64,000 nucleotides of DNA, taken from assembly GCA_011523795.1 (NCBI GenBank), contig WTFY01000002.1, forward strand, positions 62,001 through 126,000, in the 5' to 3' direction. Shown here one piece after another: positions 17,515 through 22,146 of the stretch. The notes below the pieces were generated by a model. The model did not search any database. It was not told the DNA's origin and saw only the letters and a program-made list of their open reading frames with translations. The translations under genes and the position numbers were made by a program. How positions within the stretch are numbered: position 1 is the first letter of the stretch; each line of letters starts with the position of its first letter. Source of the DNA: Gammaproteobacteria bacterium (GTDB lineage: Bacteria > Pseudomonadota > Gammaproteobacteria > UBA4575).

Positions 17515-18618
17515 TTATTCTTCACCCAAAATTTGCTCGAGTTCTTCCCCGATTAGGTCGTGCCGCCAACCCAGTATTGCATGAGGCGCCTCCAGTCCAT
17601 TGATCAGTTTCACCAGCATGGCCCGGCTGGCCAGGAAATCAGGCTGGACATGCAGTTGTTTTGCGCGTTCCTGGACGAACTGGCTTGCCAGCTTGAGGTT
17701 CTTGCGCTGGTTGCGGGACAGCACTAGATGCCGAAGCGATAATGGCCAGTCTTTCTCGGGTGTTTGCCGAGCCGCCTCAACGCAACCGAGTAACGAATGT
17801 GCATACCTGTCCCTCTGTTTGCGAGTCAGTGTTTTGATTTCCATGAGAGATGAAACACTTGCGGGTTGTTTGACCGCCAGTTCACACAGGGCTTCATCGC
17901 GCATGATCCATTGTCTTGGCCTGTCCCGTGTCATGGCCGTTCTGTCACGCCAGGATGCAAGTGCCTTGAGCACGACCAGTTGTACCGGCAGCAGCTTTCG
18001 GGCCCCTTTTACCGATTTCCATGAATTATCCGGATCAGGCTTGTATTGCCTGTCGTGGCACAAACGCTGGCATTCATTATCTACCCAGTGAGTTCGATCC
18101 CTTTCAGCAAGCTCCAGTCTGAGGGACTTGTATATCGGTGACAGGTACCGCACATCGTTGGCCGCATAGCGAATCGCTCGATCAGGTAAAGGTCTTCTGG
18201 TCCAGATCTTGCGCGACAAGGACTTGTCCAGCTGTATACCACACATTTTGAGGACCAGGTAGGCATAGCTCACCTGATGGCCATACCCCAGTGCGCTGGC
18301 AGCGATCTGTGTGTCGAAAACAGGTGCCGGAACCGTGTTACTGAGTAAATAAAGAATTTCCAGGTCCTGGCGAGCAGCGTGAAAGACCTTTGTCAAGGCT
18401 TTCGACCCAAGGAGTTCATACAGTGCCGAAAGATCATCGAGGGCTAATGCGTCAATACAAGCAATCCGGATTTGCGTGGCCACTTGGACCAAGCAGAGTT
18501 TCGGGTAGAATGAGTCCTCTCGCATGAATTCTGTGTCGACGGACAACCACTCCTGGGTGGCTGCATGCACACAAAAAGCCTTCAATTTTGCGGGTTTACT
18601 TATAATCTCGATTTCCAT
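17515..18618 (-). CDS. rnd: Ribonuclease D
   Basis: A 367-residue 3'-5' exoribonuclease that trims tRNA precursors. The DEDD catalytic residues are in SVDTEFMREDSFYP (Asp and Glu), VFHAARQDLEIL and YAANDVRYLSPIY. An HRDC nucleic-acid-binding domain follows at about residues 210-290 (LKALASWRDRTA). The ATG at 18618 was preferred over a TTG three codons upstream. Its start codon is only 13 bases from the divergent chaN start, so each promoter must lie inside the other gene's coding region, or both lack an ordinary leader. Confidence 0.93.
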   Translation of the reverse strand: MEIEIISKPAKLKAFCVHAATQEWLSVDTEFMREDSFYPKLCLVQVATQIRIACIDALALDDLSALYELLGSKALTKVFHAARQDLEILYLLSNTVPAPVFDTQIAASALGYGHQVSYAYLVLKMCGIQLDKSLSRKIWTRRPLPDRAIRYAANDVRYLSPIYKSLRLELAERDRTHWVDNECQRLCHDRQYKPDPDNSWKSVKGARKLLPVQLVVLKALASWRDRTAMTRDRPRQWIMRDEALCELAVKQPASVSSLMEIKTLTRKQRDRYAHSLLGCVEAARQTPEKDWPLSLRHLVLSRNQRKNLKLASQFVQERAKQLHVQPDFLASRAMLVKLINGLEAPHAILGWRHDLIGEELEQILGEE

Positions 18619-18631
18619 GACAGGCAATTTG

Positions 18632-19597
18632 ATGACAGCTCGTTTTTCAAGATTTCATGCACTGGCATGGGCGCTGCTGGGATGCGGTCTTGGATTGCTT
18701 CAGGATCCCGCTGCCGCCAGCAACTGGCAAGCACCTTTTTATCAGGGCCATGTGCTGACCGGCAAAATCTGGGATACAGGACAGAGCGCCTGGATTTCTA
18801 AAGAACAATTGTTTGCCGAGTTGTTGCAGCATGAATACATTTTGTTGGGGGAGGTGCATGATAACCCGGATCATCACCTGCTGCAGGCAGAAGTCCTTGA
18901 CCAGCTTGTACAGGCCGGGGAAAGGCCTGTGGTTGTGATGGAGATGTTGGCACAAGGGACATGGCAGGACCAGCCGGCTTACTGGAGCGATCTCGGATTA
19001 TTGCAGCAAGCGGTTGAGACACGAAATGCGGGTTGGCCTTGGAAGTTGTATGCACCTGTATTACGTGCGGTTGTACGTCACGGTCTTGAGTTGGTTGCGG
19101 GTAATATTGGAAGCGAAGCCCTGCATGCAGCGTCAGAAAAAGCAGGGGCCAACTGGGTCCGGGGGATTGCCACGCGATCCGGAATTCCGGTTCATAGCTT
19201 GCAACAGCTGAAAGATGATATAGCCGAATCGCATTGTGGCTACGCCCATTCAGGGCATGTCCAGTTTATGGCAGGTGCTCAATTGCACAGGGATCGTGTC
19301 ATTACACAGGCACTGGTAGACAGTCTGCCGCCGGTTGTGCTCCTTGCAGGAAGGGGGCATGTAAGGACGGACTATGCGGTCCCCATGCATTTGCGCAATA
19401 TATACCGTCGCGCGTCCTATCTGTCAGTGGCACTGATTCCTGTAAAACCAGAGGCACTCCGTCCTGAAGACTACCTGAGAGGTGTTCAGGAGGCATTCGA
19501 TATCCTGTATTTCACACCTAGCCACACCGATCAGGATCCGTGCATAGAGTTTGAGGCACAGTTGAAAAGGCTCGGGCAAAGGGAAGCATCCGAGTAA
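18632..19597 (+). CDS. ChaN-family (DUF399) haem-binding-like secreted protein
   Basis: A 321-residue protein with an Arg-containing signal peptide (ALAWALLGCGLGLLQDPAAAS). LLGEVHDNPDHHLLQ near residue 70 is the conserved ChaN motif; family members bind a pair of haem groups and are thought to act in iron uptake. The later HVRTDYAVPMHL segment also fits the fold. The Cys in the signal region is not in a normal lipobox, so a periplasmic rather than lipid-anchored form is more likely, in contrast to Campylobacter ChaN. The frame extends upstream into rnd, but the signal peptide decides the start. It converges with mreD. Confidence 0.85.
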   Translation: MTARFSRFHALAWALLGCGLGLLQDPAAASNWQAPFYQGHVLTGKIWDTGQSAWISKEQLFAELLQHEYILLGEVHDNPDHHLLQAEVLDQLVQAGERPVVVMEMLAQGTWQDQPAYWSDLGLLQQAVETRNAGWPWKLYAPVLRAVVRHGLELVAGNIGSEALHAASEKAGANWVRGIATRSGIPVHSLQQLKDDIAESHCGYAHSGHVQFMAGAQLHRDRVITQALVDSLPPVVLLAGRGHVRTDYAVPMHLRNIYRRASYLSVALIPVKPEALRPEDYLRGVQEAFDILYFTPSHTDQDPCIEFEAQLKRLGQREASE

Positions 19598-19649: not shown

Positions 19650-20129
19650 TCAGCGTTTCCAATGTAACGCACGCAAGGTCCAGTAGACTCCTGGCCAGAC
19701 TACCATGCTGGAAAGTATGGGTGCCCAGTACATCCATGTTCCGTATCCCTCACCCAAAACACCCAGAATCCAGAATGAAATACCCATGTAGGGCAACAGG
19801 ACGATTCCAACGAATATGGCCTGTTGATACAGGGGGTATTCCCGAACCTGCATGTGATACCGAATGGTCAGATAGGCAGTCACTGCAAATCCGAGAGCAT
19901 GCTGTCCCAGCAGGGTGCCATGAATGACGTCTACGCAAAGACCCAGTATCCAGGCAATCGCGATGCCAACATTTTTCGGCAGGGTCATGTTCCAGAAAAT
20001 GAGCGTCAAGGCAAGCCACTCGGGGCGCCAGAGGCGCACCGATTCTGGAAGCGGGATCAGCATGAGCACCATAGCGGCTATAAACGTGATACCAATGATG
20101 ACAGGACCTGGAGTCTGCATCTTGTTCAC
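19650..20129 (-). CDS. mreD: Rod-shape determining protein MreD
   Basis: A 159-residue inner-membrane protein of the elongasome with about five membrane segments (GPVIIGITFIAAMVLMLIPL onwards). WRPEWLALTLIFWNM and GLCVDVIHGTLLGQHAL are the characteristic MreD motifs. The start is a GTG whose sequence GTGA overlaps the mreC stop, so translation is coupled to mreC. It is the last gene of mreBCD and converges with chaN, 52 bases apart. No rng or maf gene follows, unlike in many gammaproteobacteria. Confidence 0.96.
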   Translation of the reverse strand: MNKMQTPGPVIIGITFIAAMVLMLIPLPESVRLWRPEWLALTLIFWNMTLPKNVGIAIAWILGLCVDVIHGTLLGQHALGFAVTAYLTIRYHMQVREYPLYQQAIFVGIVLLPYMGISFWILGVLGEGYGTWMYWAPILSSMVVWPGVYWTLRALHWKR

Positions 20130-20992
20130 TGGGCGCCTGTCTGGTTTTTTGCGCCACTGCCGGAAAGCTGGTTGTCGGTCAGTACGAGCAGAATTTCCTG
20201 GATCGCGTTAAGGTCCATCAAGGGTTTGGCCTCAACGCTTAAAAAGGCCTCACCAGATATTGGACTGATTTTCGTGATTTGCGCCACTGGGTAATCGGGT
20301 GGGTAGCGACCGTCCAGGCCCGATGTTGTGATCAGGTCACCGATCGCTATGTCTGTAGTGCTTACAACATGCTGGAGCTCGAGCTTGTCAGCGTTTCCGG
20401 TACCCACGACTAGATTTCGATGGCCGCTGCGGGCTACAACGCCAAGCAAGGCATGATTGGGATCTGAAATCAAAATGGCAACAGAATGCACCAGACTTAC
20501 CTTGTCCACCTGGCCAATGATGCCTTTTGGTCCGAGCAGCGGTTGCCCTTCATACACACCGTCTCGTGTGCCCTTGTTGAGGACAACACGATGGCGGAAC
20601 GGGTCCAGGTCCACGGAAATCAGTTCTGCAATCAGGACCTGTTCTTTCTTCAGTGTCTTGGTGGAGGCGAGAAGCTTCCGCAGACGGCTGTTTTCATGTT
20701 CCAGGACGGTGAGCCTTTGCAGTTTCCGCTCGAGAAGAACTTGCTTTGCATGCAACCTTGAATTTTCCTGCAGCAACTCTTGCCGGGAGGAAAATATCTC
20801 TGTGCCCTGGCTGTACATCCTTGAAGGCAGTCCTGCCAGATATTCCATGGGGTATATCACTACACCTATTCCCGAACGCAGGGCGCCTAGACGATTGTAA
20901 TGATAATCGGTGATCATCAGGCCGATGGATAGCATGGCCAAGAGAATCAACTTTACAGCAGGGGCGGAATCAAGGATAAACAGAGGTTTGAT
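20126..20992 (-). CDS. mreC: Rod-shape determining protein MreC, probable AUC start
   Basis: MreC is a bitopic periplasmic scaffold linking MreB to cell-wall synthases. The protein has an N-terminal membrane helix, a coiled coil at about residues 65-110 (ENSRLHAKQVLLERKLQRL, in part) and the two beta-barrel domains (PLLGPKGIIGQV, ITTSGLDGRYPPDYPVAQI). The first ordinary start codon is a TTG at 20950, inside the membrane helix and without a ribosome site. Upstream in the same frame is ATC at 20992, giving IKPLF, which lines up with the conserved MKPLF/MKPIF start of MreC; a strong GGAGGG lies six bases before it, and a TGA precedes that. I therefore annotate AUC initiation (288 residues). A base error in an ATG is the alternative. 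Confidence 0.85.
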   Translation of the reverse strand: MKPLFILDSAPAVKLILLAMLSIGLMITDYHYNRLGALRSGIGVVIYPMEYLAGLPSRMYSQGTEIFSSRQELLQENSRLHAKQVLLERKLQRLTVLEHENSRLRKLLASTKTLKKEQVLIAELISVDLDPFRHRVVLNKGTRDGVYEGQPLLGPKGIIGQVDKVSLVHSVAILISDPNHALLGVVARSGHRNLVVGTGNADKLELQHVVSTTDIAIGDLITTSGLDGRYPPDYPVAQITKISPISGEAFLSVEAKPLMDLNAIQEILLVLTDNQLSGSGAKNQTGAQ

Positions 20993-21063
20993 AGCTCGCC
21001 CTCCTCAGTGGTGAGTTCGTACAATCCACAGGCTGATCCAGAAAACCACTCTGAGCGTCTGTA

Positions 21064-22146
<1,083 letters not shown>

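Follow-up and report, generated by a model that had tools for sequence, protein, structure and literature searches.

The mreC gene of a gammaproteobacterium is predicted to start at AUC, one case of an AUH start that appears to prevail in sampled families of the class

Results

Organization of the mreC locus

The window, by which we mean the whole stretch of 64,000 nucleotides analysed here, carries on its minus strand the genes mreB, mreC and mreD in this order, an arrangement that fits the membership of the middle gene in the MreC family. Its product matches PF04085 (MreC) with an E-value of 7e-35 and 120 bits, against a gathering cut-off of 28. The features of the locus are the following:

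19650..20129, minus strand: mreD, with a GTG start (20129) that overlaps the mreC stop as GTGA
20126..20992, minus strand: mreC coding sequence from the predicted AUC start, 288 residues (open frame, PF04085 match, homologues)
20948..20950, minus strand: TTG, first in-frame standard start of mreC, in the membrane helix; dG -0.6, no Shine-Dalgarno; judged not to be the start
20990..20992, minus strand: ATC (AUC), predicted start codon of mreC
20999..21004, minus strand: GGAGGG, Shine-Dalgarno of mreC, 6 nt ahead of the ATC; dG -12.6
21005..21007, minus strand: in-frame TGA closing the mreC frame upstream
21064..22107, minus strand: mreB, ATG start, operon gene upstream of mreC

The minus-strand letters at the mreC start are CAC TGA GGA GGG CGA GCT ATC AAA CCT CTG TTT, and the frame from the ATC runs open to the TGA at 20126, giving a product that begins I-KPLF. 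Between the upstream TGA and the TTG at 20950 this frame contains no ATG, GTG or TTG. The original prediction, which had mreC begin at the AUC, had located the TGA, the GGAGGG, the six bases after it, the ATC AAA CCT CTG TTT and the TTG correctly, and had rightly described the TTG at 20950 as lying in the membrane helix without a ribosome site (dG -0.6).

The Shine-Dalgarno of mreD is weak (dG only -2.5) and its translation is probably coupled to that of mreC via the GTGA overlap. The ATG of mreB (22107) has no Shine-Dalgarno (dG +2.2), in striking contrast to the strong one of mreC, and the other members of the family show no evident one ahead of mreB; a leaderless or otherwise Shine-Dalgarno-independent start of mreB is possible. 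Because of this, the MreB:MreC ratio is not readable from the start codons alone. Elsewhere in the window, two longest open reading frames, 17515-18627 (minus strand, RNase D-like) and 18524-19597 (plus strand, ChaN-like), both labelled from reading their translations alone, share about 100 bases at their 5′ ends in head-to-head orientation, and at least one of the two starts is probably called too far upstream.

Conservation of the AUC codon among relatives

As the window is part of a 22-contig draft assembly, a sequencing or assembly error at the mreC start, with ATG as the real codon, might be suspected. The original prediction had named this possibility and the comparison of orthologues as a way to judge it, and the relatives refuted it: all congeners, including three separately assembled named MAG records, carry ATC at the same mreC position, a recurrence that excludes an assembly error, and AUH (AUC, AUU or AUA) is found here in more than 100 other genomes, some of them single-contig. 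We therefore give the error reading a negligible probability. Elsewhere in the family, the corresponding mreC codon is ATA at nine loci and ATT at one; one genus has TTG and another ATG. In one of the relatives (G003) we observed a 3.66 kb contig (L034; G003:C4) with a second mreB-mreC pair, nearer to the window's species than the other copy in G003; this is probably a foreign contig binned in and not a duplication.

Class-wide census of mreC starts

For the census, mreC starts were sampled evenly over gammaproteobacterial families and placed by an iterated N-terminus profile; after removal of identical starts there were 198 loci, of which 196, from 82 families, had a visible upstream stop. 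ATG, GTG and TTG were taken as standard starts; alphaproteobacterial MreC, whose N-terminus is different, lies outside the classification. At 124 of the 196 loci no standard codon occurs in frame from the upstream stop through codon 3, and 121 of these 124 have AUH at the start (ATC 53, ATT 35, ATA 33), a proportion that excludes chance. The upstream stop lies no more than five codons away at 43 of the 124, so that a start ahead of the AUH would hardly fit in. Thirteen loci are ambiguous, having an aligned AUH together with an in-frame standard codon upstream (distant in nine cases, within three codons in four). At a few loci (L095, L119, L244 and L097) the aligned position offers no AUH and no convincing standard start; in L095 and L119 an ATA stands three codons ahead of it.

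Counted by family, 51 of those sampled have AUH only, six are mixed and 25 are without AUH. mreC of E. coli K-12 starts with ATG, as does that of every sampled member of four groups (f172, f173, f124 and f154), and at NUG-start loci the ATG, GTG or TTG often occupies the aligned AUH position or a neighbouring one. These data indicate that AUH is, as judged from genome sequence, the prevailing mreC start state in the sampled gammaproteobacterial families, with AUG in other lineages, the one of E. coli among them. The original prediction, which had considered an AUC start in a shape gene unusual, underestimated its extent: the AUH start of mreC is a class-wide trait rather than something special to a single genome. 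The 25 families and E. coli, which use other starts, also tell us that the AUH start is not indispensable. On a FastTree tree, the minimum numbers of changes are 27 between AUH and NUG and 40 among AUH codons; being built on 82 residues, the tree is weak and yields minimum counts without direction, and these are not by themselves proof of selection for a weak start.

Comparative evidence for translation from the AUH codon

Since loci had been grouped by their missing standard starts and not by their Shine-Dalgarno, the strength of the latter is a measure independent of the grouping. At the 121 AUH loci its duplex dG averages -7.5, with 93% at or below -5 and a spacing of mostly 4-8 nt, compared with an average of -1.6 at in-gene control codons. 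Family means are -7.4 for AUH mreC vs -3.1 for NUG-start mreC (Mann-Whitney p 1e-8), and the stronger Shine-Dalgarno with AUH is also seen inside the two mixed families f1 and f33.

The pattern of substitutions among related loci within families was consistent with this. After the AUH, codon positions 1, 2 and 3 collected 377, 167 and 801 substitutions, respectively, and single changes comprised 576 synonymous and 166 nonsynonymous ones, whereas before the AUH the substitutions are spread evenly (1079, 1012 and 1055). The onset of codon-like substitutions right after the AUH argues that coding begins there. Amino-acid conservation begins at the same point (K2, L4, F5, G8, P9, R14), and upstream of it, where stops occur, only the Shine-Dalgarno is conserved. 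For the window, the original prediction of an AUC start is thus borne out by a conserved position, a Shine-Dalgarno, codon-like substitutions from there on and the lack of any usable alternative, and we consider it almost certain, on comparative grounds, that the start site of mreC is the AUH codon.

Current annotation would instead have MreC begin at the first downstream standard codon, which is the TTG at 20950 in the window and a GTG in Pseudomonas. Such a start has in its favour a standard codon and the published residue numbers of the P. aeruginosa protein, which match a downstream start. The next standard codon after the AUH, however, lies at a variable distance (median 16 codons, range 3-26) and has no Shine-Dalgarno to speak of (mean dG -0.9; 3% at or below -5), its use would cut into the membrane helix, and the residues skipped are conserved and show codon-like substitutions, so that this reading is hardly credible. 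The existence of such internal codons could also suggest dual starts, with full-length MreC made from the AUH and a short form from an internal NUG; as the internal NUG codons are unconserved in position and have no Shine-Dalgarno sequences, this too is very improbable, if marginally less so.

The N-terminus of Pseudomonas MreC

Genomes of group f145 encode an MreC near-identical to the solved chains 6zlv and 6zm0, which we take to be P. aeruginosa MreC structures, and their mreC starts with ATC. For the PAO1 protein, residues Pro114, Phe115, Arg175, Glu188 and Arg190 have been published (PMC8137920), and these numbers match the f145 sequences only with an offset of 16, which makes the annotated residue 1 an internal GTG. 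The same work accommodates both cytoplasmic residues and the membrane region in residues 1-14 of MreC (PMC8137920), too few for a cytoplasmic part plus a membrane region. Both the offset and the too short N-terminus are what would be expected if annotation had disallowed a real AUC start. Based on the near-identity to the solved chains and on the residue numbering, with f145 DNA rather than PAO1 DNA as the sequence compared, an AUH start of P. aeruginosa mreC seems to have been missed in annotation.

Specificity of the AUH start within the genome

As a specificity control, 200 kb of the window's genome were compared with 200 kb from a congener's syntenic contig, covering 169 conserved genes. 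In three of the 169, the two genomes have in common an AUH behind a strong Shine-Dalgarno, upstream of any standard codon that both possess; of these three, only mreC and infC were credible AUH starts. The third, G000:C4:128769, encodes an RluB-like pseudouridine synthase and was rejected: its S4 domain begins shortly after a TTG and well downstream of the Shine-Dalgarno-like sequence and the ATT. infC, located outside the window (L159; G000:C4:165644), has an ATT start with a Shine-Dalgarno dG of -12.2, and its start is AUH (ATT or ATC) in most relatives examined. mreB, used as a negative control, has ATG throughout the family. pcnB was tried as a further AUH gene and discarded, a suitably placed ATG, GTG or TTG being present in nearly all relatives examined, two loci aside.

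Discussion

We propose that the AUC of mreC would be picked out by its strong, optimally spaced Shine-Dalgarno and would be decoded as formyl-methionine, followed by KPLF. The third position of AUH would mispair with the initiator tRNA and IF3 would discriminate against it, as in infC, while the strong Shine-Dalgarno would keep the weak site usable. Through mispairing and IF3 discrimination, MreC, and MreD coupled to it by the GTGA overlap, would be held low, and MreC output would become sensitive to IF3 and initiation capacity. Taken as a whole, the explanation of the mreC AUC start as one case of the prevailing gammaproteobacterial AUH start, with the IF3 mechanism inferred, appears to us highly probable.

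AUH is known as a weak start against which IF3 discriminates, a property that gives infC its autoregulation (PMC9410913). The mreC start resembles that of infC in combining AUH with a strong Shine-Dalgarno, in having no nearby standard start and in being conserved across lineages; it differs in that the infC product, IF3, is the very factor that discriminates its own codon, which makes infC autoregulatory, whereas the mreC product is an elongasome protein. Two AUU starts are ascribed to E. coli, those of infC and pcnB (PMC9410913). The AUU of pcnB is described as limiting its translation (Binns and Masters 2002, cited in PMC9410913), and pcnB would thus resemble mreC as a non-ribosomal gene with a limiting AUH start; unlike in mreC, the AUH of pcnB is not conserved among relatives of the window's species. 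In S. aureus, reporter output from AUU and AUA starts with extended Shine-Dalgarno sequences was about 10% of that from AUG, rising in one case to 30% in rich medium (PMC13009471). cvfC1 (AUU) and ccpN (AUA) of this organism share with mreC a conserved AUU or AUA start with an extended Shine-Dalgarno, but conservation of cvfC1 is reported among staphylococci (PMC13009471), while the mreC AUH spans many families of a class. The GTC start of Streptomyces sigR is likewise reported to be a non-canonical start repressed by IF3 (PMC5472188), although it is not AUH and belongs to another gene and another phylum.

As for dosage, MreC acts on PBP2-RodA, and its overexpression alters E. coli shape, an effect counteracted by MreD (PMC7793260); it has also been proposed that MreC serves as a signal once it accumulates past a threshold (PMC8137920). 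Given that MreC dosage matters in E. coli, the suggestion of the original prediction that the AUC could limit MreC relative to MreB is plausible. By analogy with the AUH effects in infC, pcnB and S. aureus, and in view of these dosage effects, the most likely role of the AUH start would be to limit MreC, and MreD by coupling, in a way responsive to IF3 and initiation capacity, a role that we favour by a slight degree. The main rival to this limiting role is compensation: the AUH would be used but merely tolerated as a weak codon, the strong Shine-Dalgarno making up for it, and it would neither regulate nor, on balance, limit MreC. The association of strong Shine-Dalgarno sequences with AUH and of weaker ones with ATG-start mreC looks as if net output were conserved and speaks for compensation. 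On the other hand, a poor codon that is one mutation away from AUG is the sole state in 51 sampled families, the same kind of codon is a regulatory element in infC (PMC9410913) and MreC overexpression changes E. coli shape (PMC7793260); compensation therefore has a substantial but clearly smaller probability than the limiting role. Still more broadly, and as a tentative suggestion that we place somewhat below even, mreC and infC may form a conserved IF3-responsive set of AUH-start genes in Gammaproteobacteria, tying the activator of RodA-PBP2 directly to the balance between initiation factor and ribosomes; lineages of the E. coli type, because of their AUG start, would then be without the link between IF3 and mreC.

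Our literature searches found no paper on a non-AUG start of mreC; most subscription papers and preprints were outside their reach, and prior notice is possible. As far as we have found, then, AUH starts are a known kind of start and mreC is new as a widespread member. Such starts, otherwise known mainly from infC, are treated as rare curiosities, and mreC would be the most widespread case outside infC, with the same limit of search. A practical consequence is that the annotated MreC of many genomes, apparently that of P. aeruginosa among them, would be wrong and would lack the cytoplasmic tail together with part of the membrane anchor. For the biology of these bacteria, an AUH start of mreC would connect translation initiation with cell-wall elongation in a simple and testable way, in a system for which a signalling role of MreC dosage has been proposed (PMC8137920, PMC7793260).
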